A stretch of DNA of 64,000 bases from Streptomyces sp. CG1 (GTDB lineage: Bacteria; Actinomycetota; Actinomycetes; Streptomycetales; Streptomycetaceae): contig NZ_CP163518.1 of assembly GCF_041080625.1 (NCBI RefSeq), forward strand, positions 2,108,001 through 2,172,000. The letters are read 5' to 3'. A model generated the notes under the pieces. It saw nothing but the letters and a program-made list of their open reading frames with translations. It did no database searches and was not told the origin of the DNA. Made by a program: the position numbers and the translations under genes. Of this stretch, positions 41,050 through 57,728 are shown one piece after another; position 1 is the stretch's first letter, and the number at the start of each line of letters is the position of its first letter.

Positions 41050-42315
41050 CTACTGGGCTGCCTTGTCCTTGTCGCTGCCAGTTTTCCAGGCGTTCTCGAA
41101 CGCCACGAGGAGATCACCGCCCGGCAGTGCCGCTTCGACGGCTTGTCGGTCGTTCTTCGGGGCGAAGTACCCGAGCGCGGTCGGATCGGCGATGAAGGAA
41201 GCGACGGTGTCCACCAGACCGAAGTTGGCTGTCGCGTCCGCCGCACGGCTGGCTGCGACCACTCGCGAGACGCCCTTGAAGGCACCGCCGAATGGCAGCG
41301 CGCCGAGAACGTCCTGGACCAATGTCCGGTTGGAGACCACGGATTCTCCTCCGACGGCCCGGGCGACGCCGTGCAACCCCAGTGCGCCGATGGCGAAGGC
41401 GCCTGAGGCGACACCGACAGCTGCCGCCGCTGCCGCGAACTCGGGAGCCAACGGACCTGTTACCGGGGCGACAAGGAGGATCACCAGCGAAATCGCGCCC
41501 AGCGCGCCACTCACGGTCGCGAGGACATCGCCGAGGGCCGCGATGGCGTTCGCATGCGCCTTGAGCCACTTGACAGCATCGGCCACGGCTGCGCTGACGG
41601 CCGCCGCGACCATGTCGTCGATCTTGCTCAAGGCTTTGCCGATGCTGACGAACGCATCACCCAGCCTCTTCATCAGGCCCGGCTCGTGCGGCGCGATGTC
41701 CATCGCCTTGTCGAGTCGTCTCGCGACCGTCCGGCCTTCGAGGTCGTAGTCGGTGGCCAACTTGTGTGCCTCGGCGCGGATCCGGTCGAGGTCCGACTGC
41801 GCCGTGGCGGCCGCCAGCTCCGCGGCGGATCTGTCCTTCTCGGTCTTCTCCCGCTTGCGCTCTTCGGCATCGTCCTTGGATGGGAGGTCCAGCATCGGCT
41901 TGGGAGGCAGACCGGCCAGCTTCCCCTTCGCCGCGTGCAGTGCGTCCTTGGCGTCCTGCGCCTGCCTCTCCAGGACTTCCGCTCTGCTCTGCCAGGCCGG
42001 CATCGCGTCAGCCCAGTCCGTCAACGCCCTCCCGGCCTTACTGAAGGACTTTTTCGCCTTATCGACCTTGGGGCGGAAGTTGTCGTCGAACTGCTCGCGA
42101 AACGCGTCTGCGTGGCGCCCCTTCCAGTCGCCCTCGCCCGTGCCATGCAGGACGTCGGATATCTCGTGCAGAGCCTTGGCCGTGCGCTGCACGATGCCCG
42201 CCACATGTTTGGCGGTGTGAGGGTCACCTGGGCACGGGACGAATTCCAGAGCCGGGTACCGGTCCTTCAAGGGTGAGGTCTGCGTGGGCGATACCCACGA
42301 GAAGACATCGCTCAC
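41050..42315 (-). CDS. large WXG100-like (putative type VII-secreted) protein
   Basis: The protein has 421 residues from GTG 42315, whose codon overlaps the WXG100 gene stop (GTGA) and is preceded by GGAGGGG. Residues ~30-130 form a WXG-like helical hairpin: GTGEGDWKGRHADAFREQF and ALTDWADAMPAWQSRAEVLE. A charged coiled-coil follows (DDAEERKREKTEKDRSAAEL), then a hydrophobic region with two membrane-like segments (LGAISLVILLVAPVTGPLA and VGVASGAFAIGALGLHG). A typical toxin domain is not seen at the C-terminus. Members of this class are exported by ESX-like systems or act as polymorphic-toxin carriers. No EccC-type ATPase lies on the element, so export would need the host's system. Confidence 0.8.
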   Translation of the reverse strand: MSDVFSWVSPTQTSPLKDRYPALEFVPCPGDPHTAKHVAGIVQRTAKALHEISDVLHGTGEGDWKGRHADAFREQFDDNFRPKVDKAKKSFSKAGRALTDWADAMPAWQSRAEVLERQAQDAKDALHAAKGKLAGLPPKPMLDLPSKDDAEERKREKTEKDRSAAELAAATAQSDLDRIRAEAHKLATDYDLEGRTVARRLDKAMDIAPHEPGLMKRLGDAFVSIGKALSKIDDMVAAAVSAAVADAVKWLKAHANAIAALGDVLATVSGALGAISLVILLVAPVTGPLAPEFAAAAAAVGVASGAFAIGALGLHGVARAVGGESVVSNRTLVQDVLGALPFGGAFKGVSRVVAASRAADATANFGLVDTVASFIADPTALGYFAPKNDRQAVEAALPGGDLLVAFENAWKTGSDKDKAAQ

Positions 42316-42614
42316 GCGCACCCCTCCTGGGCCTTCCGCAATTCTTGAGCCAACTCGTCGTCGAAATCCTCGAATGCCTTCTTCATCTTGTCGAGGGTCT
42401 TGACGGCTGCACCGGAGAACTTCTTGATCTGCTTGATCCCGTAGGACCACTCGTCCCCGAAGTCGTTCATACGTGACGCAAGCATGCTCACGCCCATGCA
42501 ATCGCCGTCGACCTCATCCATCTCTCGGCCAGGTCGCTCCATGATCTCGCCGATGTTCTTGATGTCACTGCGCACGCGGTTGAGCACATCGATGTCGACG
42601 TAGATGTCGCTCAT
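42312..42614 (-). CDS. WXG100-family protein
   Basis: This 100-residue all-helical protein has the WXG100 hairpin: helix one around VLNRVRSDIKNIGEIMERP, the turn DFGDEWSYGIKQ (a WSYG variant of the W-x-G turn), and helix two KFSGAAVKTLDKMKKAFEDF. Small size, no signal peptide, and placement beside a larger WXG-like protein are typical of ESX substrates that dimerise with partners. ATG 42614 is 20 bases after the upstream gene's stop; the downstream gene overlaps its stop. Function in host competition or signalling is an inference. Confidence 0.85.
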   Translation of the reverse strand: MSDIYVDIDVLNRVRSDIKNIGEIMERPGREMDEVDGDCMGVSMLASRMNDFGDEWSYGIKQIKKFSGAAVKTLDKMKKAFEDFDDELAQELRKAQEGCA

Positions 42615-44337: not shown

Positions 44338-44963
44338 TGTGGACTCCCGTGGAGGTGGGGGGATAGGTCAATCGAACTGACGCTACCCATGGGGCGAGTG
44401 GTGTCACCAGCCGGGTTTGCGTCAAGATCACGTAAATCGACGTCAGATACGGGCGAATTCACGCATAGACACCAACACGGCTTCCCCCTGCGCCGGAGAG
44501 TGCGGAGCAGCACCCTTTGAGGATGCTTCTCGCCTCGGAAGGTCGAGTTGCCCTATCGCCTCGATACCCTGTCCCCTCCAGGAGTGCCTTCGGCACCGTC
44601 TCGGACGCCGCTGCCGGGCCCTGGACGTTCCCCGCACATCGTTTCCGAAGTGGTGTGGGTCTGAGGGCTCGTTCCAGGTCTGTGAGTAACTACCTGGCCT
44701 TGAGCCTCTTTCCCTGCTGGGGGAGGGGTTCGTTGGCATGTGGTGGCATGTGAGGCCGTGAGCCTGACTGTTAGCCCTCAACGCCCTCAACGCAGCCGAG
44801 TTACAACCTTCTCTACTCGATCAAGGCGGCTCGCTCCGCTCACCGCGCGCGGCCCGGCCCCCGGCCGGGCCTGCGCTCCTGTCTCCGCCCCGCTCCAGCC
44901 CGGCCGGCGCCCGTGCCGCGCTCATAGCAATCAGCCGCTTGCTGTAGAAGGGGTGCGTCGTGG
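44338..44963. other. intergenic region upstream of the WXG100-type operon
   Basis: No convincing gene. The first 100 bases should carry the operon's promoter; I see no clear consensus. CCATGGGGCGAGTG at 44388-44401 matches 14 bases of an arm of the hairpin at 52.9 kb, without a partner arm nearby. Confidence 0.4.
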
Positions 44964-45140
44964 CTAGGGCGGTCGGCTCCACGGCTTTACGGAGCCACTT
45001 TGGCGCGAGCCTCGAAGATCATGGCCCCAACGTCGTGCTTTACCGGGCAGGTCCACAGACTGCCCGACGCGCCGCAAGCTTACGGGGCCATGATCACTCG
45101 CGCCAAAGCAGCGCCACCCCAAAGCCGCTCCACCGACCTC
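44964..45140 (+). ncRNA. long imperfect hairpin, copy A of a paired structured element
   Basis: Core stem 1: GGCGCGAG 45002-45009 with CTCGCGCC 45097-45104. Then a bulge CCTCGAA 45010-45016 opposite a single A (45096). Stem 2: GATCATGGCCCC 45017-45028 with GGGGCCATGATC 45084-45095. The apical hairpin is CGGGCAG 45044-45050, loop GTCCACAGA, CTGCCCG 45060-45066. Outside the core, GGTCGG and GGCTTT on the left pair with AAAGCC and CCGACC on the right, extending it to about 45140. A second copy with the same bulge and near-identical loop, but changed stems, lies on the other strand at 52.9 kb. It lies just beyond the 3' end of a minus-strand gene, so a terminator role is the simplest alternative. 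RNA versus single-stranded DNA function is undecided. Confidence 0.6.
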
Positions 45141-45154
45141 TCACTTTCCCGTCC

Positions 45155-45880
45155 TCAGTCGAATCTGCGTGTTGTCATGCCGAAGTAATCCATGGCGAAT
45201 TGAAGGAATTGCAATCGCGCGCCTTCGTCAACTACTTCCCCCTGGAGGAAGTATCGCCCTTCTAGGCGTCGCGAGAGATTTACCATGGCCTCCAGTTTAA
45301 TCCATCCGCCCATTCGGCTATCCGAGAGAACTTCGGGCACAAAATCACCGAAGAGTGTTACAGCTAGCGGATTGTAGTCGATAGAAAATGATCCGGAGCT
45401 GTCATTCCAATAGAAGTCATAATTGTCGAGCGGGCCAAGGTAGTCAATGGTCCCTTTCAAAAACCACCAACAGACTTCCTGGTAGTCTTCGCACTCCTCT
45501 AGGGTCGGCGGCTCAGCTCCATCATGTTCTACGGCATTGCGAAGACGCCTGAGACGACGGAGTGAGCGCTGGAGGATTACGCCCCAGGTTTCCAGAAGGC
45601 CGAGCCAGCCAATACTCTTCGAATCTGAGTATTGACCAAAATTGTATATCCGGTTCAGGTGTTCAAGGCGTGCATCGACAGCACGCTTAAGAGCGAGAAC
45701 CGCATCAATTCGGTCATACTTGCCATGATGATTGGAAAGCCGGTACGCCGCATGATGAAATGACGCTTCGGCGCGCGCGATCATCATTCGATCGTAATCG
45801 TCAATGCCGCCTTTTCCGTGGCCATTCTCCGTAAATTCATGCAGGCCGTTTTCCAACCACCAATCCAAGGTGCTCTCCAT
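45155..45880 (-). CDS. HEPN-like protein, low-GC cargo gene
   Basis: The protein has 241 residues from ATG 45880; a TTG at 45901 directly after a stop is the longest possibility. It is largely helical with many aromatic residues. LRRLRNAVEHDGAEPP contains RNxxxH, the usual catalytic signature of HEPN RNases and of MNT-associated HEPN proteins. Before it are helices FHHAAYRLSNHHGKYDRIDA and KRAVDARLEHLNRIYNFG, which fit an N-terminal HEPN bundle. The GC content is visibly lower than the flanking DNA, pointing to recent transfer. HEPN proteins often act in phage defence or toxin systems; here there is no paired nucleotidyltransferase. Confidence 0.55.
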   Translation of the reverse strand: MESTLDWWLENGLHEFTENGHGKGGIDDYDRMMIARAEASFHHAAYRLSNHHGKYDRIDAVLALKRAVDARLEHLNRIYNFGQYSDSKSIGWLGLLETWGVILQRSLRRLRRLRNAVEHDGAEPPTLEECEDYQEVCWWFLKGTIDYLGPLDNYDFYWNDSSGSFSIDYNPLAVTLFGDFVPEVLSDSRMGGWIKLEAMVNLSRRLEGRYFLQGEVVDEGARLQFLQFAMDYFGMTTRRFD

Positions 45881-46019
45881 GCAGTCATGGACGCCAAACA
45901 ATTATTGGAACACGTCGCTTTCGCGGGGCATCGAGTCGCGTGTCGGCTTGGGGACACCGCAGGCAGCTGCCCTGACCGGCGCCTCAACCTTCATCTCTTC
46001 TCTTCACCTTGCAAGCGCC

Positions 46020-46784
46020 CTATTCAGCAGAATTCCGCTCCCAATATTCATCCATTCCTTCAAGATCGGCATTACCTAAATGACGAGCCGCCTCTATCGC
46101 CAGTGCGCTCAATCGCTGCGAGACCTCCTTAGGTAGGGCAATTGAGCCAATGAAAATACCAGTATAAAGAATCACGCTGCGGCCTATTTCATTCAGAGAG
46201 ATCAAGAGGCCTATTTCACTGTAAAGGCCTCCCGCTGCGGGCGGCCCATCAGGCATGAAATGTTGCGGTCTGTGGCCAGGGTGGGCCCCGTATCCGCTCA
46301 GCTTCGAGTACCTGATTTGGCCAGTCGGAACCCCCCAGCCTCCCTGCTCCAGTCGCATCCGAACCTGGACCGCAGAGTACTTGCGCCGACGATCCTTTTC
46401 GTCTGCACATCTCCATTCGGCCAGCGTCGCTGGATCATAGAGGAACAGGGATACCAGATTCACTCTCTCTGCGATTGAGCGAGACAGCGTAAGGGCCTCA
46501 TCATAAAAGCCCATGTGCATTAGACGTATAGCGGCGCGAGCCGCGTTGCAGACACCCCCAGTCAAGTGCTCAATCGCGTGATCGCCGCCTTGGCAACCCC
46601 AATAGCAGCTTGAGGATCTATCCAGGATAGATAGCAAGGTCCCGAGAGCCTTGTGCAATTTAGGCGCTTTTTCACCAAGGGAAGGAAGCCTCTCTGTTGA
46701 TAATGCGTCACAGGAGTCCTCAAGACTCCTCATGGCGGTATAGAAGCCATCCTCTTCAAAATCACCTTCGGTCAATCCAGGCAC
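46020..46784 (-). CDS. helical protein of unknown function, low-GC cargo gene
   Basis: The protein has 254 residues from GTG 46784, supported by a strong GGAGGAGG ribosome site 5 bases upstream. Sequence is all-helical: HKALGTLLSILDRSSSCYWG, then GGVCNAARAAIRLMHMGFYD, EALTLSRSIAERVNLVSLFL and EIGLLISLNEIGRSVILYTG. The helix IRLMHMGFYDEALTLSRSIAERV resembles DUF5677-type proteins of unknown function, but the match is weak. Low GC and position beside the HEPN-like gene (140 bases apart, same strand) suggest the two arrived together as an accessory, perhaps defence, pair. Confidence 0.55.
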   Translation of the reverse strand: MPGLTEGDFEEDGFYTAMRSLEDSCDALSTERLPSLGEKAPKLHKALGTLLSILDRSSSCYWGCQGGDHAIEHLTGGVCNAARAAIRLMHMGFYDEALTLSRSIAERVNLVSLFLYDPATLAEWRCADEKDRRRKYSAVQVRMRLEQGGWGVPTGQIRYSKLSGYGAHPGHRPQHFMPDGPPAAGGLYSEIGLLISLNEIGRSVILYTGIFIGSIALPKEVSQRLSALAIEAARHLGNADLEGMDEYWERNSAE

Positions 46785-46943
46785 GAGTCCTCCTCCTTAC
46801 TCGCAATACCTACGCGTCGAAAGCGCACCTCACTACGGTTCTGAGCGACGACGCTGCACCTGTGGTCAGTATCAGCTCTGCAAGGACAGAGTCTGCCGCT
46901 GTAGGTACACTCAAGTCACCTGCTGACCCACGTAGTTCGGAAC

Positions 46944-47019
46944 AGAGATCGGTGCTGACCAGGCAACCAGGTGCTATGAGCGAGGGCGCCAGTAGCCCCT
47001 GGTGCCCACACCGATCTCT
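46944..47019 (+). promoter_or_regulatory. 76-base leader hairpin before the small membrane-protein gene
   Basis: AGAGATCGGTG (46944-46954) pairs perfectly with CACCGATCTCT (47009-47019). An inner stem, CCAGGTGCTA with TAGCCCCTGG, has one mismatch. It ends 17 bases before the ATG at 47036, just upstream of AAAGGGG. It could control translation or termination. Confidence 0.55.
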
Positions 47020-47035
47020 CTTCGAAAGGGGCTAC

Positions 47036-47200
47036 ATGGAACTGGCGGGATGGGTGACGGTCGGAACCGCAGCGGTCGTCGGAGGGTTCACTGTCGTGGG
47101 ACACCTCTTCGACCAGGTGCCGGCTCTCTCCCAAAAGTTGATCACTGTGATTCGGTCTGTTCGCGCAGTGCGTGATGAGGTACGGGCTGACCGCAGGTGA
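47036..47200 (+). CDS. small membrane protein (54 aa)
   Basis: ATG 47036 follows AAAGGGG by 4 bases. The protein has 54 residues: a hydrophobic segment WVTVGTAAVVGGFTVVGHLF, then an amphipathic, basic tail (SQKLITVIRSVRAVRDEVRA). It is preceded by a long hairpin leader and followed by a strong terminator hairpin, so it looks like a self-contained expression unit. Small proteins of this form include type I toxins, holin-like proteins and conjugation regulators. I recognise no family, and the direct evidence is only the good ribosome site and framing. Confidence 0.5.
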   Translation: MELAGWVTVGTAAVVGGFTVVGHLFDQVPALSQKLITVIRSVRAVRDEVRADRR

Positions 47201-47206
47201 TCAACT

Positions 47207-47244
47207 GGCCTCACCTGCGGGAGCTCTCTCCCGAAGGTGAGGCC
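47207..47244 (+). terminator. strong hairpin after the small membrane-protein gene
   Basis: GGCCTCACCT (47207-47216) pairs with AGGTGAGGCC (47235-47244), with an inner CGGGAG-CTCT-CTCCCG hairpin. It begins 6 bases after the stop at 47200. A long GC stem without a T-run is typical of Streptomyces terminators. Confidence 0.7.
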
Positions 47245-47392
47245 GGCTCTCCTGCCGACACGTTCGTGGTCGTGCCAGAAGCGTGCCAGGTCGCACGGGG
47301 AACCACGGGGAACAGCGGGGTATGACGGAGCCGCCCACGACTCACCAAGTCCCCTTTGCCGCAGCTCAGCCAAGTAGCGAGCGTTACATCGC

Positions 47393-47411
47393 CTCAGCTT
47401 CCCAAGCTGAG
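47393..47411 (+). other. tRNA-anticodon-arm-like site (possible old att site)
   Basis: CTCAGC-TTCCCAA-GCTGAG is a perfect 6-bp stem with a seven-base loop reading anticodon CCC. AGCTTCCCAAGCTGA (47396-47410) recurs at 49056-49070. The rest of a tRNA is absent. Upstream of both copies are GTGCCAG-type arm sequences common beside tyrosine-integrase attP sites. Confidence 0.45.
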
Positions 47412-47517
47412 AGCCTCGACGCTGCCAGCACCGGCTAGCTCTGCAACTTGGTCTGGTCGGAGCGTAGTGCGGTCGAAACCCCATGCTTGACGTGGCGCTT
47501 CGCACTAGTCTCCGACC

Positions 47518-48210
47518 ATGGCGAGCACGACATGCGGATGGTGTGGACGGTTGGCTCACATGAGGCCTGCCAGCAGAGCTGAGGTAGTCCTCGATCACAA
47601 CAGCCGTCTCAACGTAGGGTTCCAGACTTACCAGTGTGCCAACTGCCATCGGCTGCTTCTCGCTCACGGATGGACAGACTTCCAGCCTACGAACGATTGG
47701 GACGAGGCTCCCTCTGATCTCTGGAACCACCCCCAAGCCGGGGAGCCACAATGGCTTCCTCCCGCGATGTCCAACAGGACGTTCCCAGATGTTCCGCCGG
47801 CCATCGAGTCGCTCGCAGTTGAAGCGCACGATTGCCTGACGATCAAGGCCGACCGAGCTGCCGTCACACTCGCGCGCGCCGTGGTCGAGGCATCCGCGAA
47901 GGAAAGAGGGGTCATCAAAGGGAGCTTGATCGCAAAGATTGATGAGCTTCACAAGCTGGGGCTACTGCGCGGACACATCAAGGAAGCAGCCCACGAAGTG
48001 CGCTTCGGCGGTAACGAGGCAGCGCATGGCGATCTCACCCCAGTTGATCATGAGGCGGCCGAAGAGATCTTGACGCTCATGGATGAGGTGCTGAACGACC
48101 TGTTTCAGTCCCCAGCTCGCGTGACACGTGCCCAGCAGCGGCGCCTAGAGCGTTCCCAGGCTCTCCCGGGGCCAGCTAACGCTGCTGTGTCAGAGGGTAC
48201 GGCCGAATAG
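47518..48210 (+). CDS. DUF4145 (HEPN-like) domain protein with N-terminal zinc ribbon
   Basis: The protein has 230 residues. The N-terminus holds two Cys pairs, CGWCGRL and YQCANCHRL, a probable zinc ribbon. Residues ~95-200 are a DUF4145 domain: DRAAVTLARAVVEASAKERG, SLIAKIDELHKLGLLRGHIK, EAAHEVRFGGNEAAHGDLTP, and EEILTLMDEVLNDLFQSPAR. The R...N-x3-H arrangement matches the HEPN-type core of this family. DUF4145 proteins often accompany restriction or other defence genes. No other defence gene is in the same operon here. It lies between two copies of a tRNA-like direct repeat, suggesting separate acquisition. Confidence 0.8.
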   Translation: MASTTCGWCGRLAHMRPASRAEVVLDHNSRLNVGFQTYQCANCHRLLLAHGWTDFQPTNDWDEAPSDLWNHPQAGEPQWLPPAMSNRTFPDVPPAIESLAVEAHDCLTIKADRAAVTLARAVVEASAKERGVIKGSLIAKIDELHKLGLLRGHIKEAAHEVRFGGNEAAHGDLTPVDHEAAEEILTLMDEVLNDLFQSPARVTRAQQRRLERSQALPGPANAAVSEGTAE

Positions 48211-49196
48211 TTGAAGCCCCGATGGCGTGCCCACGGCGATACCCACACTTCGGCGAGACACGGCAACGAGTGAGTGTCTAACTGCGTGACAACGCCGACG
48301 AACGTTGGCGGACAACCACGTACGCTTACGGACCATCACAGCAGCTCGGCGGGCCACCATCCCAAGGCTGAGCCCCCTCCCAAGTTGCTTCGGGACGAAG
48401 AGGTCATCGCCCAATGGCCCGCTACCCCGCTTCTGCTGGCGCGGCTTGCTCTGACGGACGCCATCGCGCAGCGTGGCAAAGGCTCCGTGGTGGTTGCTCT
48501 GACACACGCGCGCCTGATCGTTCGACGCAGCCGCCATCGTGGTTGACGATCGTCGGCTGAGACGCAGACGTCCAAGGCCCAGCCTCCGGGGACGGCGAGG
48601 GCAAGAAGCAGCGTGTGTCGACGACCGCGTAATTCCCCAGCTGCGACGCCACTTTCCCCAGGCAAGCGTTCGAACGCGCGGTGAGCCTGAGGGCGGCCCG
48701 CCCGCCTGGGTAGTGTCGCGGGTCCTGGCGGCCGGTCAAGGACGCCTTCGGCGCCGCTACCGCGGTGAGCTGCGCTCATCCTTGACAGCCCACCACGACC
48801 CACAAGATCTGGCAGCTGTCGGGCGGGCCGGGGACGAGCGGCGTCCCCCTGGTCGCGCAGGCGCAGCGCCGGGATCCCCATGGGGAATTTTCTGGCGCCG
48901 CGGCTGGGGAATATCGCCGTCGTTCACAGCGTGCCATTCGCGTGCCAGAACCAGCGGGGACTCAGGGAGAACAACGGGGAATCGACCGCGTACCGCCATG
49001 GGACGGAGCACAGTTCAACGGCAGGTCAGCACGGTAGGGGCACCCAGAAGACCCAAGCTTCCCAAGCTGATGGCCCCCCTCTCGCTGAGACCGTCATCCC
49101 CTGGGTACCGTCATGCTCGTGTCCGGTGCGCGCCGGGTTGGTCACCCGTGGGCGTGCGCTGGTTGATCGCGCGCGACTAGGGGAGCTGGTTCGGGC
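48211..49196. other. gene-poor segment with possible remnant and second tRNA-like repeat
   Basis: About 985 bases without a convincing gene. 48355-48545 (+) is weakly coding-like (PKLLRDEEVIAQWPATPLLL) without a good start. GTCAAGGA near 48733 and TCCTTGAC near 48778 form a long-loop inverted repeat. 48930-49070 resembles 47265-47410 (GTGCCAG motifs, GGGGA runs, GACGGAG) and ends with the second AGCTTCCCAAGCTGA at 49056-49070. Confidence 0.45.
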
Positions 49197-50111
49197 ATGG
49201 CGGTTGACGCTGCTCGCACGGAAGAGGGGTTCACGTCGGCGAGGGCTGCGCGGGTGATGGCTGCCGCGTGCCGGGCTGCGGGGCTCGATGACAGAGGCGC
49301 GGAGTTGATCCGTCTCGGGGAGAACGCGCTGTTTCGGCTGGCATCCGTGCCGGTGATCGTGCGCGTAGCTCGGGGCGAAGAGTGGCTGCCCAAAGCCCGC
49401 ACCGAGGTGGCCGTGTCCCGGTGGCTGGCGGAGGAACGGTTCCCGGCGGCTCGAATCGTCGAGGATATGGAGCAGCCGTTCTTGATCGATGGCCACCCGG
49501 TGACCTTCTGGCATCTGATCGTCGAGGGTGACCGCAAGGCGACGTACGGGGAGCTGGGCGGGATCCTGCGGGATCTGCACTCGCTGACCGTGCCGGACGG
49601 GCTTTCCCTGCCGTCGTACGATCCCTTCGACAAGCAAGCGCTGCGGCTCGATCGGGCGGTGATCCCGGACGATGACAAGGTCTTCTTGCGGAAGCGCTGG
49701 CGCGAACTGCAGGGTAAGTATGCCGAGTTGCGGTTCGAGACGCCCAAGGGGCCAGTGCACGGGGATGCCCACGTGCAGAACCTCATGGTGGACGACCAAG
49801 GCCGCGTGATCCTGATCGACTTCGAGATGTTCTGCTACGACCATCCCGAGTGGGATCTCATGGTTACGGCCGTGGAGCACCACAGCCTTGGTTGGCAGAC
49901 CGACGAACAGTACGCCGACTTCGTGGCTGCGTACGGGCGAGACCTGTACGACTGGCCGGGGTACGAGACGCTGCGGGGCATCCAAGAGTTCGGCATGACG
50001 ACGTGGCTTATGCAGAACGTGCAGGAGGACGAGAAGACCGCGGCCGAGTACCGCCGGCGCATCGCTGGCCTACGCAATGACGATGCACCTCGGGACTGGC
50101 GGCCCTGGTAG
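49197..50111 (+). CDS. aminoglycoside phosphotransferase-family (APH) kinase
   Basis: The protein has 304 residues of the APH/choline-kinase fold. The catalytic loop is PVHGDAHVQNLMVDDQG (HGD with the base Asp and Asn, ~residue 187) and the metal-binding motif is VILIDFEMFC (~206). An ATP-binding N-lobe is suggested by LGENALFRLASVPVIVRVA. The family phosphorylates aminoglycosides, macrolides, sugars or other small molecules; the substrate cannot be inferred here. Its stop is 3 bases from the convergent end of the TPR regulator. It may be element cargo conferring resistance or a metabolic role. Confidence 0.85.
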   Translation: MAVDAARTEEGFTSARAARVMAAACRAAGLDDRGAELIRLGENALFRLASVPVIVRVARGEEWLPKARTEVAVSRWLAEERFPAARIVEDMEQPFLIDGHPVTFWHLIVEGDRKATYGELGGILRDLHSLTVPDGLSLPSYDPFDKQALRLDRAVIPDDDKVFLRKRWRELQGKYAELRFETPKGPVHGDAHVQNLMVDDQGRVILIDFEMFCYDHPEWDLMVTAVEHHSLGWQTDEQYADFVAAYGRDLYDWPGYETLRGIQEFGMTTWLMQNVQEDEKTAAEYRRRIAGLRNDDAPRDWRPW

Positions 50112-50114
50112 CTG

Positions 50115-51491
50115 CTACTCGTCGTCCTCGTCCAGGCGGGTGAGTGCGTCGTGAACCTTCTCGTTGAAGGCGGCCACGGCAGGGTTCGCCGCGTGCACGC
50201 TGACCTCTGTCTGGAAGTCGGTCACGTAGCGCTGGAAGCGGGTCGACTGGAGGGAGTCGCCGCCGTCGACTGCGAGGCTCGCGGTGGTGACGGCGGCTTC
50301 CAACTCGCCGTTGAGTAGCTGGCTCTGGGCGAGAACCATGCGGCAGAAGCCCAGGGTGCGGGCGTACTTCGGGTCGGTGCTGTCTACGGCGCGCTGGGCC
50401 TGGTCGACGGCTTCCCGGCGCATCTTGAGGTCACGGAAGCAGTGGCAGAGTTCGCCCATGAGTTCTGCTTCGTCGAAGTAGCTCAGCCACGCAGGGTCGT
50501 CGCCTGTGTCGGCGCGTTCGAAGTGGCGTTCTGCCTCCGTCATCGCGCGGGCTGCCGCGATTCCGTCGCCCGTGTTGGAGAGCGCGCGGGCCTCCATGGC
50601 CGAGTAGTTCGCCATGGCGCGCGGGGTGGCCCGGCTCTTGGCGCCCTCGACGGCGGCGCGGGCTAGCTGGATGGCTTGGGCGTGGTTGCCCAGGTAGTTG
50701 GCCTGGTGGCTGAGGTTGCCGAGGATACGGGCGCCGAACATGCGGTCATCAGTGACCTGGGACAGGCGCAGCGTGGAAGTCAGGTAGCGGTGCGCAAGCC
50801 GGTGGTTGCCGACGTCGTACGCGGTCCATGCGAGCAACTGGGAGATCTCGGCGGCGGCGCCGAACAACGCGGTGCCCACCTTCTCGCTGTAGCTCGCGTC
50901 CAGCAACGGCAACACGTCTTCGCGGAAGTAGTGGCGAAGAGCCTTGTGGCCATGGCCCCCGCCGTACTTGAAGTCGAGTTGCATGAACAGGCTGGCGGCT
51001 TCCCTGATCGCGCGAACGTCGCGCATGCCGACTCGTCGGTGAGCGGGCTTGTCGACTTGGATGCCATCGGGGCGGGCAATCATCCATGACAGGACAGCGG
51101 AGCTTAGGTCGGCGTCCGCGACCATCAGTTGGTCCGGCGCAGGGGCATCGGCGCGCTCGTGGGTGAGTCCGTCGAGCATGGACAGCGCGTCGGGAAGAGT
51201 ACTCGGGTAGCCGATCGGCTCGGGAGCCGTCGACTTGGTGTGGTCGAAGAAACCGAGATCGCCCGGCGTGATCCGGCGCCCGAGTTTCTCCGAGAGAACG
51301 TCCGCCATGATCGCGGCTGCCTCCGGCCTGATGCCGAAGCCGTCCCGCCAGCGCCCAACAGCGATGTGCGTTGTCCGCAGGTCAAGGCCGCGCTGAGCCC
51401 CCAAGTCCTTCATACGTTTCGCAAGGCCCTTGTTCGAGACCATTGCCTCGCCCATGACAGCGATCAACTGCGCGTTCGGCTCTCGGCTCAT
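50115..51491 (-). CDS. XRE-like regulator with TPR repeats (NsdA/NsdB-like)
   Basis: The protein has 458 residues. Residues ~10-75 form a helix-turn-helix region (GLAKRMKDLGAQRGLDLR, HIAVGRWRDGFGIRPEAAA). The rest is a run of tetratricopeptide-type helical pairs: HRLAHRYLTSTLRLSQVTDD, FGARILGNLSHQANYLGNHA, MANYSAMEARALSNTGDG and MRREAVDQAQRAVDSTDP. This arrangement occurs in Streptomyces regulators of development and in plasmid-borne paralogues, which may respond to a peptide or protein partner. It is divergent from an ATPase gene, with palindromic sites between them. Its target is probably that intergenic region (inference). Confidence 0.8.
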   Translation of the reverse strand: MSREPNAQLIAVMGEAMVSNKGLAKRMKDLGAQRGLDLRTTHIAVGRWRDGFGIRPEAAAIMADVLSEKLGRRITPGDLGFFDHTKSTAPEPIGYPSTLPDALSMLDGLTHERADAPAPDQLMVADADLSSAVLSWMIARPDGIQVDKPAHRRVGMRDVRAIREAASLFMQLDFKYGGGHGHKALRHYFREDVLPLLDASYSEKVGTALFGAAAEISQLLAWTAYDVGNHRLAHRYLTSTLRLSQVTDDRMFGARILGNLSHQANYLGNHAQAIQLARAAVEGAKSRATPRAMANYSAMEARALSNTGDGIAAARAMTEAERHFERADTGDDPAWLSYFDEAELMGELCHCFRDLKMRREAVDQAQRAVDSTDPKYARTLGFCRMVLAQSQLLNGELEAAVTTASLAVDGGDSLQSTRFQRYVTDFQTEVSVHAANPAVAAFNEKVHDALTRLDEDDE

Positions 51492-51552
51492 GCTCCCCTG
51501 CCAACCCGAGAATTACGGCGAGTGTTCATCGTGTCACAGCAATCTGGCTCTG

Positions 51553-51613
51553 GGGGGTTCATTACTGAACCCCCTTCGTCTTTGCCGGTGTTCACGTGAA
51601 CCCCCTAGTGAAC
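51553..51613. promoter_or_regulatory. GTTCA-type palindromic operators between regulator and ATPase genes
   Basis: GGGGGTTCA-TTAC-TGAACCCCC at 51553-51574, the 12-base perfect palindrome GTTCACGTGAAC at 51590-51601, and a further half site TAGTGAAC at 51606-51613 share a GTTCA/TGAAC core. They lie between divergent starts at 51491 and 51699, so one factor could control both genes. Confidence 0.65.
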
Positions 51614-51698
51614 GCTCCCGGCCAAGCCTGCCGCGCCGTTCACTGGTCACCACAGATCGGCGAGTCATGGGGCTCGCCAGTGCTCGGGAGGGAACGCG

Positions 51699-52256
51699 GT
51701 GGAAGCGCGCCAGAGCAAACACACAGCGAACGCCCCGACGGTGGGCGCTCCGCACCCCTCGGTGCATGACCCTTCCAGCGGCCACTTCCGGGCGCTGACG
51801 GTCTACGCCGAGGACCCGGACTGCGTGAAGGCTGCGCGGGACATGGTCGGCTCCTACCTCACGACCTGGAGCTTGGGATACGTGGTCGATGACGCGAAGC
51901 TCGTCGTGTCAGAACTGGTCGGCAACGTCGTCCACCACGCCGTACCGGATGAGCGCCTGGCGATGCCCGGTGCGAAGCGGCGCATCGACGTATGGCTGAT
52001 CAACTGGCCGGGACTGCTCGGGATCGGCGTCCTCGACGAGGACTCGAATCCGCCCGACCTCCCGGCGGGTGAGTTCCTCTCGCCGGAACTGGCAGGTGAC
52101 TTCGTTGAGGCTCTGGTACCGGACCGGGGGCGCGGGCTGCTGATCGTTCAGCGTCTGGCTGATGCAGTGTGGTGGTCGCCGGGGCTCAAGGGCGCTGGCA
52201 AGTCGGTGTGGTGCCGGTTTGACCTTGATCGAGTCTGGGCCGAGTCCTCGGCCTGA
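51699..52256 (+). CDS. histidine-kinase-type ATP-binding protein (anti-sigma-like)
   Basis: The protein has 185 residues from GTG 51699, with GGGAGG 6 bases upstream. It is a single GHKL ATPase domain: N box LVVSELVGNVVHHAVP, G1 region IGVLDEDSNPPDLP, and G2 region RGRGLLIVQRLADAVWWSP. The form matches the many RsbW-like Streptomyces proteins that bind anti-anti-sigma factors or regulate other proteins by phosphorylation. No cognate sigma or anti-anti-sigma gene is adjacent. It is divergent from the TPR regulator, sharing the palindromic control region, as often seen for such pairs on Streptomyces genomic islands. Confidence 0.85.
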   Translation: MEARQSKHTANAPTVGAPHPSVHDPSSGHFRALTVYAEDPDCVKAARDMVGSYLTTWSLGYVVDDAKLVVSELVGNVVHHAVPDERLAMPGAKRRIDVWLINWPGLLGIGVLDEDSNPPDLPAGEFLSPELAGDFVEALVPDRGRGLLIVQRLADAVWWSPGLKGAGKSVWCRFDLDRVWAESSA

Positions 52257-52581
52257 CAGACGCCGGGTCGCCACCCTTGCTCTGCTCCCTCGCGATCGGG
52301 GGCGGGGCCGGCGACTCGGTCACTGGCCGGAGTCTGACCACTTCGGCTGAAGGGGCGCGGCTTCTCGGACGGTCCGGGAGCTCCCCTCCCGAGCGAGGGG
52401 CCGCGCTTCACATCCCCACATAGGCCGGGCCACCCCGTCAGCCCTGGAAAGCGAAGGGTGGCCCGGCTGGGAACGCGACGGTTCCCGGTGCCTGATGGTA
52501 CCGGGGCCGTCGTGCTGCGTTTCGGCCCTGGTCCAAGGAAGTTGACGATCCGTTACCTAGATCAGGGCAGAGGTGGGCAAG
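52257..52581. other. intergenic region, about 325 bases
   Basis: No gene is supported. GC-rich inverted segments around 52350-52440 (GAGCTCCCCTCCCGAGCGAGG) could terminate the ATPase transcript. Confidence 0.4.
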
Positions 52582-52878
52582 GTGACTGGCTCCGGTGAGG
52601 ACTGGCTGAATGACGGTCTCGACGCGACGGGCGCGGACTCCGGTCTCTGGGTGTCCGGCGTCGACTACATCGCGGGGTGGCGTGAGGCGCGCGAAGCTGC
52701 CGACCGGGTGAACCGGGCGCTCTTGGGCGCGAGCTTCGAGCTGTCCGCCGTGCGGGCCGTGGCCTCGACGAACGAGGACGGTGACGGCGTCGTCCGTCTG
52801 GTGGGCTGGCCGAACGTCATGGACCAGCTCGCCCGGCTCCTGGAGGCACACGCGGATGGCGACAGTGGTGCAGCATGA
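52582..52878 (+). CDS. small acidic protein of unknown function
   Basis: The protein has 98 residues from GTG 52582 (MTGSGEDWLNDGLDATG), chosen because GAGG lies 8 bases upstream; GTG 52573 is in frame too. The sequence is acidic and partly helical: WREAREAADRVNRALLGASF and WPNVMDQLARLLEAHADG, with a beta strand FELSAVRAVAS between. I see no signal peptide, membrane helix or known motif. It lies just upstream of structured element B on the ICE. Coding sense is supported by codon bias and the ribosome site only. Confidence 0.55.
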   Translation: MTGSGEDWLNDGLDATGADSGLWVSGVDYIAGWREAREAADRVNRALLGASFELSAVRAVASTNEDGDGVVRLVGWPNVMDQLARLLEAHADGDSGAA

Positions 52879-52925
52879 GGCGCCTTTTCGCTGGTGAGCG
52901 GTGGACGTGGGCACGTCGCCGGCCG

Positions 52926-53077
52926 GAGAGACTTTGGGCTGGAGCTGCCATGGGGCGAGTGAACAGGGGGCCTTACGCTCGCCAGCGGATCGGGCAGTCT
53001 TTGGAGCTGCCCGCAATAGCCCGATCGGCCCCCTGTTCTTCGAGGCTCGCCCCATGGTGGCTGCCTAAAGTCTCGGA
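52926..53077 (-). ncRNA. long imperfect hairpin, copy B of a paired structured element
   Basis: Read on the minus strand: stem 1 CATGGGGCGAG 53056-53046 with CTCGCCCCATG 52959-52949; bulge CCTCGAA 53045-53039 opposite one A (52960); stem 2 GAACAGGGGGCC 53038-53027 with GGCCCCCTGTTC 52972-52961; apical hairpin CGGGCAG, loop CTCCAAAGA (53006-52998), CTGCCCG. Outside, GAGACTTT pairs with AAAGTCTC. Compared with copy A, the bulge and hairpin stem are identical and the loop differs at two positions, while four base pairs of stem 2 and one of stem 1 have changed on both sides. It lies in the convergent gap between a small plus-strand gene and the GntR regulator. Confidence 0.6.
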
Positions 53078-53285: not shown

Positions 53286-54065
53286 TCAGGTGCGGGTGCG
53301 TCGCGCGGTCTGCTTGTCGGCGGTGATCCGGTAGGCGAGTTCGGCACGGTCCGCGCCGAAGCGCAGCTCTTCGAGGATCAGCGGGCGGTCGTCGGTTCCG
53401 TGCGCGACGCGGGCCACGTGCAGGATCGGTGTCGCGTCCGGCAGGCGGAGGGTCGCCCGCTCGTCCGGCAGGGGCATGTGTGCCCGTACGGTCTCGGTCC
53501 AGGACAGTTTGTGTCCGGCCTGGGTGAGGACCCAGTAGAGGGCCGCGGGTGGCTTGCACGGCTCCTTGCCGAGCATGGGTACGGCGTCGGCGACCTCGAA
53601 GGGGATGAGGGTCCGGTGCATGGCGCGCGTGCCGGTGCTGGGGTCGATCAGCAGTCGGTCACAGCCGAACAGCGCTTCCTCTTCGCCGAGTTGGAGGAGT
53701 CGGCCGGTGTCTTTCGTGGTGTGGCTGCGGTAGGTGCTCGGTTCCTCGGCTTCTTGCCAGATGTCGCCGTTGGGCATGACGAACTTGTCGTCCGGGGTGC
53801 GGCTGATGCGTCGTTCGAGGGTGAGGGTGGGCTGTCCGCTGGAGCGTACGAAGCTGCCCTTGCCGTGCCGGACGTCGATGAGGCCCTCGGCCCGCAGAGC
53901 CGCGATGGCGTTACGGACCGTCGGGCGAGAGACGCCGTACTTCTCCATGAGCTGGGCTTCGGACGGCAAGAGGGAGTCCGGGGCGAACTCGCCGGACAGG
54001 ATTGCTTCGCGGATCGCTGCGGCCACCTGCTGGTAGAGGGCTCCTGGGCGCTGGATCTCCGACAT
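53286..54065 (-). CDS. GntR-family regulator, KorSA-like
   Basis: The protein has 259 residues. The N-terminal winged helix is complete: LYQQVAAAIREAILSGEFAP, LLPSEAQLMEKYGVSRPTVR, NAIAALRAEGLIDVRHGKGS. The effector (UTRA) domain follows, from ~100 (EPSTYRSHTTKDTGRLLQLG) to the end, with a closing EELRFGADRAELAYRITAD. In pSAM2-type elements KorSA represses transfer and replication activator genes. This gene is divergent from the transfer operon starting at 54230, with two 16-base operator-like sites between, so it probably represses both itself and the tra operon. Ligand unknown. Confidence 0.88.
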   Translation of the reverse strand: MSEIQRPGALYQQVAAAIREAILSGEFAPDSLLPSEAQLMEKYGVSRPTVRNAIAALRAEGLIDVRHGKGSFVRSSGQPTLTLERRISRTPDDKFVMPNGDIWQEAEEPSTYRSHTTKDTGRLLQLGEEEALFGCDRLLIDPSTGTRAMHRTLIPFEVADAVPMLGKEPCKPPAALYWVLTQAGHKLSWTETVRAHMPLPDERATLRLPDATPILHVARVAHGTDDRPLILEELRFGADRAELAYRITADKQTARRTRT

Positions 54066-54229: not shown

Positions 54230-54577
54230 ATGCAGTCCATTCCCGTGGACACGACGCGACTGGGCGTGCTGCGGTGCGCCATCGCGCCGGAAGCAAAGCT
54301 CACCAACCCCGAGACGCAGGAGGTGAAGAGGGACCGGGACGGCAACCCGGTCTGGACCGTGGCCGTCACCGTGCGGCAGGACAGGCGGCGGATCTCCGTC
54401 ATCGAGATCGCCGTGAGCGGACAGCCGAAGGGCATCGAGGAAGGGCAGATCGTCAAGGTCACCGGCCTGACGGCGTTCACCTGGTCGATGGGCGACCGGC
54501 ACGGCGTCAGCTTCCGCGCCGACGCGATCACCCCCGTGTCCGGCGCTCCGGCGCACGTCAAGGGCGGTGACGCCTGA
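54230..54577 (+). CDS. SCO3933-like AICE regulatory protein
   Basis: The protein has 115 residues from ATG 54230, with AGGAGG 9 bases upstream. It resembles the SCO3933 family encoded next to the translocase in pSAM2-type elements: LGVLRCAIAPEAKLTNPETQ, EVKRDRDGNPVWTVAVTVRQ and EGQIVKVTGLTAFTWSMGDR. The fold appears beta-rich, OB-like. Its function is unproven; it may bind DNA or the translocase. It is the first gene of the transfer operon, and its stop overlaps the TraB start by one base. Confidence 0.75.
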   Translation: MQSIPVDTTRLGVLRCAIAPEAKLTNPETQEVKRDRDGNPVWTVAVTVRQDRRRISVIEIAVSGQPKGIEEGQIVKVTGLTAFTWSMGDRHGVSFRADAITPVSGAPAHVKGGDA

Positions 54578-55878
54578 TGGCACCGATCCTGTTCGTGCTC
54601 GTCATCGCCGTGCTGGCGTGGGTGTTCGTCGTCGGTGACCTGGTCCGCCGGCACCGTCCGTCCTGGCACTGGTACCTGGTCGGCTACCCGGCGACCGCTT
54701 GCCGGGCGGTGTTCACCTGGCGGAAGGTCGCCCAGCTCAACGACCTTGCCGTAGCCAAGCGACCGCCGCGCGGGCTCCTCGGGGACCTGGTCGTCAAGGG
54801 TGACCCCCTGCGGCCGGTGCCTCCCCGGATCTCCTTCCCGCGGGCCACCCGCACGGGCCTGACCGTGGTGGTGCGGCTGCACGCGGGCCAGACCCCGGCC
54901 ACCTTCCTGAAAGCGGCGGATGCGCTGGTGCACGCGTGGAAGGTCCACGCGGTGCGTGTCACCTCCCCGGAACGCGGACTCGTGCTGCTGACCGCGACAG
55001 CCACGGATCCGCTCCAGCGGCCCGGCTTAGCCTCGGCCCCCGCCGAGCTGCTGTCCGCTCTCATCGGCGTCCTGGAGACCGGCGGCGCCTGGGTGATGAA
55101 CCTGCGGCTCGTGCCCCACTGGCTCATCGTCGGGGCCACCCGCTCGGGCAAGTCCACGCTGCTGGCCCGGCTGATCACCCAGCTCGCTCCTCAGCCGGTC
55201 GCCCTGGTCGGCATCGACTGCAAAGGCGGCATGGAACTGGGCCTGTTCGCCCGCAGGTTGAGCGCGCTGGCCACCTGTCGGCGTGAAGCGGTCGCCGTGC
55301 TCTCGGCACTCGTGGTCGACATGCAGGACCGGATGAGCGCCTGCCGCGCGGCCGGAGTGCGCTCCATCTGGGAACTGCCGGACAAGGTGCGGCCGGTGCC
55401 GGTCGTCGTGATCGTGGACGAGATCGCGGAACTGTACCTGTCCGACGGCACCCGCGAGAGCAAGGCGGAAGCCGAACAGTGCTCCACGCTCCTGCTCAGG
55501 ATCGGGCAGCTCGGGGCCGCGCTCGGGCTGCACCTGGTCGTGGCCGGACAGCGGGTCGGCTCCGACCTCGGCCCCGGTGTCACCGCTCTGCGTGCCCAGC
55601 TCGGCGGACGGATCTGCCACCGGGTCAACGACCCCGGCACCGCCGAGATGACTCTCGGCGACCTGAACAAGGACGCGGTGGCCGTGGCCCAGTCGATCAC
55701 GGCGGAGGAACGCGGTGTGGCCGTCTGCACCGGCCCGGACGGTGGCTGGAGCCGTGCCCGCTCCCACCTCACCGCGACCGACGAGGCCGTGTTCACGTCC
55801 CGGAAGTACGCCGCAACGACCCCGGAGCTGCCCGCCATCGGCCGCGCTCTCGCCGGTCTGGAAGGAGACGCCAAGTGA
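54577..55878 (+). CDS. TraB/FtsK-type DNA translocase (conjugal transfer)
   Basis: The protein has 433 residues. An N-terminal membrane segment (PILFVLVIAVLAWVFVVGDL) leads to a FtsK/SpoIIIE motor with Walker A VGATRSGKSTLLA (~186-194) and Walker B PVVVIVDEIAELYL (~277-287), plus LHLVVAGQRVGSDL in the sensor region. In actinomycete conjugation this single protein moves double-stranded DNA between hyphae. The length and gene position match the Tra of pSAM2-like elements. It is followed by a GTGA overlap with the Spd-like gene. Confidence 0.92.
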   Translation: MAPILFVLVIAVLAWVFVVGDLVRRHRPSWHWYLVGYPATACRAVFTWRKVAQLNDLAVAKRPPRGLLGDLVVKGDPLRPVPPRISFPRATRTGLTVVVRLHAGQTPATFLKAADALVHAWKVHAVRVTSPERGLVLLTATATDPLQRPGLASAPAELLSALIGVLETGGAWVMNLRLVPHWLIVGATRSGKSTLLARLITQLAPQPVALVGIDCKGGMELGLFARRLSALATCRREAVAVLSALVVDMQDRMSACRAAGVRSIWELPDKVRPVPVVVIVDEIAELYLSDGTRESKAEAEQCSTLLLRIGQLGAALGLHLVVAGQRVGSDLGPGVTALRAQLGGRICHRVNDPGTAEMTLGDLNKDAVAVAQSITAEERGVAVCTGPDGGWSRARSHLTATDEAVFTSRKYAATTPELPAIGRALAGLEGDAK

Positions 55879-56244: not shown

Positions 56245-57728
56245 ATGAACACCGGCGCCCAACTCACCACCACCCGTGCCGCTTCGGCGGCCCACCCTGG
56301 AAGGTCACCACCATCACCCCGGATATCACCTCGGCTGACCGGCGCGCCGCTCTCGACCGCGCGGCGCGCCTGCGTCAGCTCCCCGAAGCAGACCGCGACG
56401 CCATCCGCCTCGCACAAGACCCGAAGTTTCCCCGCCTGCTGGAGCAGATCACCGCCACCGGCGGCTGCGCCCACCCCGTCCACCTCTCCGGCTCCACCAC
56501 CACAGTGGACGGCACCACTGGCGAGATCCTCCACCACTACGACACCCGCACCGAGCCCGGCGAACGCCTCCTCGTCCGCTGCCGCAACCGCCGCGCAACC
56601 GTCTGCCCGGCCTGCTCCCGCCTTCACGCCGGAGACACCTACCACCTGGTCCGTGCGGGTCTCCTCGGCGGCAAGAATGTCCCGGCGACCGTGCGGCACC
56701 GGCCCCGGCTCTTCGTCACCCTGACCGCCCCGTCCTTCGGCCCCGTCCACCGTGCCGGGGAGCTGTGCCGCCCTCGACGCGACGGCGGCACCTGCGAACA
56801 CGGCCGTCCCCTGGGCTGCGGCGCCGTCCACGCCCCGGACACGCCGGTCATCGGCCAACCGCTGTGCCCCGACTGCTACGACTACAGCGCGCACGTCCTC
56901 TGGCACGCACACGCCTCCAAGCTCTGGGACCGCTTTGTCATCGACGTCCGGCGCCGCCTCGCCTCCTCGGTCGGCCTCGTACAGTCCGGCTTCGCCAGGC
57001 ACGCCCGGCTCTCCTTCGCCCGCGTCGCCGAGTACCAGCGGCGGGCGGCGGTCCACGTGCACGCCGTCATCCGCCTCGACGGCCCCAACGGACCCGACGA
57101 CGAACCCCCGGCCTGGGCTACTGCGGAACTCCTCATCGATGCCGTACGTGCCTCCGCCCGGCGGGTCCTGGTCCGCACGGTCTACAGCCCGGCCGCAGGA
57201 GAGCTGGCCTTGCGCTGGGGCGCCCAGGTCGACGCCCGGTCTCTGGACGCCGGCGGCGCCGGACCCGACGATGACGCCGTGGCCGCGTACGTGGCCAAGT
57301 ACGTCACCAAGGGAGCCAGCGACACGGGCGCCGGCACCGACCACCCACTCACCACCTGGGCGGATATCGAGTCGGCTCCCGTCAACGGCCACGTCCGCGC
57401 CCTCATACGCACGTGCTGGCGCCTCGGCAGCCTCCCCGAGTACGAACCCCTCCGCCTCCGCGCCTGGGCCCACACCCTCGGCTACAGGGGCCACATCCTC
57501 ACCAAGTCGCGCGCCTACTCGACGACATACGCGGCACTCCGCGCCGAACGTGCCCACCACATGGGCCACCCCGACATGCCCGACGCGGTCACCGAACGGC
57601 AATGGCGCTACGTCGGCTCTGGCCACACCCCTGGCGCCGCCCTCCTCTCCACCGGAATCGCGGACGATCTGGCGCGCAACCGCGAGATCGCCCGCGAAGA
57701 GCTCCACTGGGCCGGGGTGAGCCGTTGA
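56245..57728 (+). CDS. AICE replication initiator (RepSA-like) with 5'-end frameshift
   Basis: A canonical site, CGGAGGTGATCCCC, leads into ATG 56245, but that frame soon ceases to look coding. The Rep sequence continues in the frame starting 56247: RFGGPPWKVTTITPDITSAD, ATGGCAHPVHLSGSTTTVDG, then VCPACSRLHAGDTYHL, FVTLTAPSFGPVHR, and the histidines of AAVHVHAVIRLDG. The C-terminal region includes VAAYVAKYVTKGA, typical of rolling-circle initiators of this family. A one-base deletion between about 56245 and 56285 would explain the shift; the uninterrupted frame from GTG 56505 gives only 407 residues. It may be a true lesion, a programmed shift or a sequencing error. Confidence 0.8.

Follow-up and report, generated by a model that had tools for sequence, protein, structure and literature searches.

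Rolling-circle replication of actinomycete integrative and conjugative elements (AICEs), such as pSAM2, has long been known. The rolling-circle plasmids of Firmicutes carry single-strand origins (ssos) of several unrelated hairpin families, ssoA, ssoT, ssoU and ssoW, which replace one another and act on one strand only. For Streptomyces plasmids, the available passages of PMC4170104 name sti as the sso of pIJ101, place spdA between rep and the sso in rolling-circle plasmids and mention, citing others, priming independent of RNA polymerase for pSN22; those of PMC11985553 put sti downstream of rep and describe it as a site where the second strand is synthesized, and those of PMC9761944 have it acting in its natural orientation. 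Here we describe, from a 64,000-nucleotide stretch of Streptomyces sp. CG1 (contig NZ_CP163518.1, positions 2,108,001 to 2,172,000; the window), two copies, A and B, of a structured element, copy B lying near the gene for RepSA, the rolling-circle replication initiator of an integrative and conjugative element (ICE). Hairpins of this kind (type I), together with those of types II–IV introduced below, are probably interchangeable putative ssos of RepSA elements. The element would then be a putative new sso within a class that is itself known: in the open papers searched, no lagging-strand origin is named for AICEs, and the term “sso” is absent from the main text of two AICE surveys.

Architecture of the element

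Both hairpins were found where the first-pass annotation of the window had reported them (44964-45140 on the plus strand and 52926-53077 on the minus strand), with the parts it had described, namely a bulge CCTCGAA facing a single A, an inner 12-bp stem and an apical CGGGCAG/CTGCCCG hairpin. The four pairs by which the inner stem differs between the copies are all compensated, as had been said; compensated change in the outer stem was likewise borne out, although its count of one pair was wrong, three compensated pairs being found in the next 12-bp stem (CTTTGGCGCGAG versus CCATGGGGCGAG, with 3' arms that match each). Read from the sequences of the two copies, seven pairs differ across both 12-bp stems, all of them compensated; the alignment of copy A with copy B has a mean column identity of 82%. 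On the strand chosen by the first-pass annotation, the RNA folds reach -91.5 kcal/mol (z -5.59) and -108.6 kcal/mol (z -7.07), with none of 200 shuffles equally stable, and folds as single-stranded DNA give z -8.10 for copy B on the RepSA-sense strand and z -7.60 for copy A on the same strand. The element lies in non-coding DNA, no reading frame remaining open through more than 84 of 148 distinct copies, and as single-stranded DNA it folds into a long imperfect hairpin. Rfam gave no match in the window at the gathering score, which agrees with the earlier statement that no named family covers it.

The whole elements and the parts of copy B are listed below, together with scores from two covariance models, R1, built from ten copies, and R2, built from 37 copies on the other strand.

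44984..45126, minus strand (probable functional strand): copy A, whole element; R1 156.5 bits on the other strand, flanks like those of locus L042
52930..53071, plus strand (probable functional strand, in the sense of RepSA): copy B, whole element; R1 158.3 bits on the other strand and R2 153.5 bits on this strand, copy B being among the training sequences of both
52931..52939, plus strand: copy B, outer stem, 5' arm, pairing with 53063-53071; includes a conserved G.T pair (37/37 rows)
52943..52959, plus strand: copy B, second stem, 5' arm, pairing with 53046-53062; tandem T.G/G.T inside, with wobble in 33/37 rows at each of the two pairs
52961..52972, plus strand: copy B, inner 12-bp stem, 5' arm, pairing with 53027-53038
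52973..52978, plus strand: unpaired motif (G/T)TA(A/C)GC, directly after the inner arm, placed from alignment A6
52991..53013, plus strand: apical hairpin CGGGCAG/CTGCCCG, each of its seven pairs standard in at least 35/37 rows
53039..53045, plus strand: seven-base bulge TTCGAGG (CCTCGAA in the first-pass annotation), between the inner and second stems

The motif (G/T)TA(A/C)GC occurs somewhere in 139 of the 148 distinct copies, and the bulge, when read on the other strand, is CCTCGAA in 108/148 and CCTCTAA in 34/148.

Distribution and covariation

The two hairpins are members of a large structured family that has no name. By blastn, six places were found in the window's own genome, and 20 plasmid records matched at E up to 1, of which 18 are from Streptomyces, one is recorded under Kutzneria although its description gives Streptomyces sp. 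NL15-2K, and one, from Pantoea at E 0.6, is probably a chance match. With R1, 106 of 150 Streptomyces genomes had matches, as did 154 of 245 genomes of the order (2/8 genera); R2 matched in 30 of 394 genomes of the class (2/137 genera), 29 of these 30 belonging to the window's own genus. The per-genome counts include matches to the mirror strand, which the models also recognize at low scores (some 30-55 bits for R1). Scanning named genomes with a pattern yielded at least 119 loci, and all 80 loci titles listed were from Streptomyces, whilst a phage collection gave no match to copy B.

The first-pass annotation had read the two copies as one structured element under selection on structure and had proposed a search for covarying homologues; these were found in the 106 genomes above, with covariation well above that of the controls. 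In the set of 81 distinct copies, standard pairs fill 95.5% of the pair cells, and 22 of 49 pairs, comprising 253 cells, are changed on both sides, as compared with 31-43% standard pairs and at most 43 double-changed cells in controls with slid partners. For the 37 copies on the other strand, counted on a hand-written structure, 98.2% of cells pair and 17 of 45 pairs (138 cells) are changed on both sides, against at most 24 double-changed cells in the slid controls. None of 500 shuffles reached the observed values in either set; these shuffles keep relatedness, the copies being related and their cells therefore not independent events.

Some copies stand apart in their surroundings. Two diverged copies, 1.8 kb apart, lie on a contig of another actinobacterial family (G418; locus L263, 7837-7985 and 9647-9794), where tblastn gave no RepSA or TraB match. 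Plasmid matches H11-H18 are half-length and lie on large Streptomyces plasmids, and at locus L010 (8000-8142) a linear plasmid carries a full-length copy some 2 kb from its end, with no RepSA nearby. A link to linear-plasmid ends was considered; among the near-end matches, the one short match examined, H31, sits on a circular record, for which distance from the end is meaningless.

Strand and position relative to RepSA

The initiator gene of the resident ICE is the following.

56427..57728, plus strand: RepSA, rolling-circle replication initiator of the ICE; PF20199, 474 bits for 56505-57728, start codon not settled

At the genome level the RepSA match starts at 56427, and the Pfam matches are RepSA and REP_ORF2-G2P; PF20199 RepSA, a rolling-circle initiator, is found on the ICE of the window and on three plasmids. 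Of 209 distinct element places, 68 have RepSA on the fetched stretch, many stretches being only 3-8 kb long. In 67 of these 68, the strand that folds is the sense strand of RepSA, which lies 0.5-9.5 kb away and on the same side of the element in all but the tandem plasmid record L007. That record, of 27.8 kb from S. formicae, has tandem copies of one AICE, with two type I elements in the stretch examined. The neighbouring modules vary in kind and direction, GntR-type regulators reading in the same or the opposite direction and the recombinase being of the serine or the tyrosine type. Counted with four RepSA queries, and including both window copies and second copies, 43 of the 54 copies scoring at least 110 bits are near RepSA, as opposed to 1 of the 15 below 110 bits. 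Co-occurrence at the genome level (element in 106 and RepSA in 134 of 150) was set aside as uninformative, since most genomes have RepSA.

The strand that folds can be approached through mismatches, because G.T does less harm to a hairpin than A.C, and each G.T on one strand reads as A.C on the other; comparing the two is an easy means of asking on which strand a palindromic element folds. Both 12-bp stems were located by an anchor and Watson-Crick matches only, a procedure that favours neither mismatch type. On the strand of the first-pass annotation, the 148 distinct copies show 7 G.T, 45 A.C and 19 other mismatches (sign test 7e-8); counting 58 distinct arm sets leaves 7 G.T against 40 A.C (1e-6), and counting distinct column/type events leaves 6 against 19 (0.015). 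Three more positions, which correspond to a 2x2 internal loop and one outer mismatch in the first-pass annotation, are A.C on its strand in 72, 68 and 66 of 81 rows; they are conserved G.T pairs on the other strand, so that the outer hairpin is nearly continuous there. The opposite strand thus seems to be the one that folds, and the strand originally chosen was probably wrong.

Other hairpins in the same place

R2 also picked up a divergent group (type II), of about 158 bases and with other stem sequences but a similar plan, comprising an outer stem with TAAAGC at its end, a long stem bulged in its 3' arm, a GTACGC motif and the CGGGCAG hairpin. At locus L267 (4505-12970), three type II elements lie within 8.5 kb, with tyrosine-integrase matches between and after them, and look like stacked AICE remnants. 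When loci were chosen by RepSA first (20 loci taken from the upper end of the list of RepSA matches), folding in windows revealed, among the hairpins listed, recurrent long ones of types III and IV. Type III, about 150 bases long, is found in L301, L302, L304 and others of L286-L305, and at G082:C1:1720180-1720331; type IV is found in L287, L291 and L296, upstream of RepSA and on the same strand.

A blast search over 72 RepSA-bearing loci, most of them selected for carrying type I or II, found type I alone in 42, II alone in 13, III alone in 6, IV alone in 3, I with III in 1 and none in 7. Across the RepSA loci, matches lie on the RepSA strand in 45 of 48 cases for type I, 13/13 for type II, 7/7 for type III and 3/3 for type IV. 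Type III matches, some of them partial, occur in 82 of the 150 Streptomyces genomes. Cross-listing these same genomes for RepSA and types I and III gave, among the matches listed, 150 RepSA, 142 type I and 110 type III places; of the type I places listed within 12 kb, 38 of 39 share the RepSA strand, as do 37 of 37 for type III, and RepSA lies downstream of each of these 38 and 37. The 150 RepSA places listed divide into 38 with type I, 37 with type III, 75 with neither and none with both, where 9.4 with both would be expected. Types I and III are set apart by blast, no sequence relation being seen between them. Judged by sequence, types I–IV, diverged or unrelated, take the same side and strand and appear interchangeable. 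Mismatches on the RepSA-sense strand of the other types number 7 G.T against 1 A.C in type II (15 rows, L263 left out) and 21 against 9 in type III (35 rows).

A putative single-strand origin and its alternatives

Among the roles that the first-pass annotation had listed, a plasmid-type single-strand origin offers the best reading; what the computation shows is the conserved covarying structure, the strand bias of the mismatches, the constant strand relation to RepSA and the presence of other hairpins in the same place and on the same strand. In rolling-circle plasmids the Rep-sense strand is usually the displaced one, a rule that comes from those plasmids and not from RepSA; by analogy, the RepSA-sense strand is presumably the displaced strand and the hairpin the priming site. 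The excised ICE would replicate by rolling circle, displacing the RepSA-sense strand as single-stranded DNA, in which the element would fold into its outer, second and inner stems with the conserved G.T pairs, the seven-base bulge, the apical hairpin and the unpaired (G/T)TA(A/C)GC. Host factors would then prime complementary-strand synthesis at the folded hairpin, the priming enzyme itself being a guess, and copy B would serve the resident ICE in this role.

A number of observations weigh against such an origin. At 90% identity the 61 longer RepSA proteins fall into 44 clusters, but at 70% into only 6, so that the constant orientation may partly be inherited, and many copies have no RepSA on the stretch examined. 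Conversely, R2 matched only 3 of the 20 RepSA-chosen loci (all three on the RepSA strand), 7 of the 72 RepSA loci lack any type even with types III and IV added, and locus L065 carries both type I and type III. Besides copy A, two type I matches break the strand rule: the second copy in L093, which is degenerate, and a piece of 46 bases in L051. When all consensus pairs of A6 (37 rows) are counted, no mismatch bias appears (27 G.T against 39 A.C); the A.C cells lie in apical pairs taken as not real, which confound this whole-consensus count. The bias in the stems could partly come from strand-biased mutation, although such mutation of single-stranded DNA would likewise mark the RepSA-sense strand as the one becoming single-stranded. 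In all 148 copies the RepSA-sense strand gives the more stable fold, a preference that shuffled copies share (430/444 as RNA, 376/444 as DNA). The stability bias is therefore mostly one of base composition, only the margin left beyond the shuffles counts (-13.9 against -9.1, and -6.7 against -2.3 kcal/mol), and strand energy was accordingly demoted as strand evidence. Finally, the pIJ101 record, in which sti was not located, matched neither R1 (filters off, best E 2.5) nor R2 (E up to 0.01).

The best surviving alternative, though an unlikely one, is that the element is transcribed on the RepSA-sense strand and acts in the AICE as a structured RNA, either a small RNA or a cis-regulatory one. 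Covariation around conserved unpaired motifs is an outcome of selection on RNA, and tolerance of G.U suits RNA as well as DNA; yet the strand is nearly fixed to RepSA over 0.5-9.5 kb while neighbouring genes and their directions vary, hairpins of other sequence occupy the same place, and neither an Rfam match in the window nor a terminator-like end was found. Considerably less probable still is a site of transfer, segregation or excision whose direction on the element must be fixed, such as a TraB recognition locus or a partition site. Since TraB usually reads in the same direction as RepSA, strand by itself cannot separate the two, but L053, L044, L098 and L094 have RepSA and no TraB match on the locus, and TraB, according to the available passages of PMC4170104, recognizes 8-bp repeats and moves double-stranded DNA, a mode of action that offers no grounds for folding a single strand. 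A transcription terminator or insulator, the former having been among the first-pass suggestions, can be practically dismissed: both copies do lie 3' of minus-strand frames in the window, as had been noted, but no T-run follows either end of either copy on either strand, as read directly, and the length of about 140 bases, the conserved bulge and loops and the strand tied to RepSA also count against it.

The resident element and copy A

Besides RepSA, the ICE to which copy B belongs in the sso reading includes the following genes.

53286..54065, minus strand: GntR-family regulator (KorSA/KorA-like); PF00392 and UTRA, 214 bp from copy B
54577..55878, plus strand: FtsK/SpoIIIE-type transfer protein (TraB/TraSA-like); PF01580
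57915..59435, minus strand: serine recombinase, presumably of the ICE; PF00239, PF07508 and PF13408

Copy B fits this ICE. In copy A, the folding strand is opposite to that of the resident RepSA, 12 kb away, which makes it the sole exception among the 68 elements; moreover, 342 bp of the window around it are 89% like another copy in the same genome, which has no RepSA or TraB match nearby. Because of its strand and these flanks, copy A is probably an orphan left over from another element; contrary to the first-pass annotation, which had placed both copies on the ICE, they probably do not work together in a single ICE. A 139-bp stretch near copy A (44599-44737) resembles two repeats that flank the AICE in locus L045 (own genome, near 3.71 Mb) and is possibly attachment-site DNA. 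To the left of copy A, a frame at 41050-42501 has a putative type VII secretion system (T7SS) secretion-signal domain, PF21725.

Taken as a whole, the observations lead us to favour, with some reserve, the existence of a swappable sso slot in AICEs, filled by at least four hairpin families, diverged or unrelated, on the same side and strand relative to RepSA and nearly always one per element. Recombination would swap the origin whilst keeping its strand, and orphans such as copy A would mark lost elements; no name for any of these families was met in the papers searched. If true, this would provide concrete, strand-assigned sso candidates for AICEs, type I being matched in 106 of the 150 sampled Streptomyces genomes, and would explain a common non-coding structure and offer a means of finding and orienting AICEs and their remnants. 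It would also supply natural variants for testing how actinobacteria prime single-stranded DNA.

Comparison with known single-strand origins

The sti site, going by the available passages of the papers cited above, belongs to a rolling-circle conjugative plasmid of Streptomyces, whereas type I hairpins are found on integrative elements with RepSA. Two folded stretches of pIJ101 were no more structured than shuffles, sti being impossible to place for comparison, and a Pfam search of conceptual pIJ101 frames, which were poorly chosen, gave no Rep family. Type III provides a connection to plasmids. It occurs at 81% identity on pMR2 of Micromonospora rosaria, which has RepSA PF20199 and is presented as an AICE in a figure legend of PMC3364876. 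A type III match of 46 bases was also seen on an S. longwoodensis plasmid of 9.9 kb; this plasmid shares 69-81% identity with pIJ101 over its korA-like, spdB and tra stretches, and its Rep matches Rep_1 at a score just under the family cut-off. The hairpin of this plasmid (1741-1900) folds at -68.2 kcal/mol on the strand of rep and at -59.4 on the other, and the order is rep, an spdA2-like frame (its start resembling a pIJ101 frame taken for spdA2), the type III-like hairpin and korA. Since spdA lies between rep and sso in the available account of PMC4170104, this type III hairpin appears to sit where an sso is expected, and type I would take the place of type III on AICEs. No name was found for type III. 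On pMR2 and the S. longwoodensis plasmid it is like type I in its strand relative to Rep, its length and its position with respect to the replication and transfer genes.

With regard to the Firmicute origins, ssoA carries the CS-6 motif TAGCGT, which is present in 0 of 148 type I copies on the probable functional strand; homology was compared by this motif only. The likeness lies instead in the arrangement: just as ssoA, ssoT, ssoU and ssoW are several unrelated hairpins that can replace one another and act on one strand, types I–IV appear as several hairpins that stand in for one another on the strand of RepSA.

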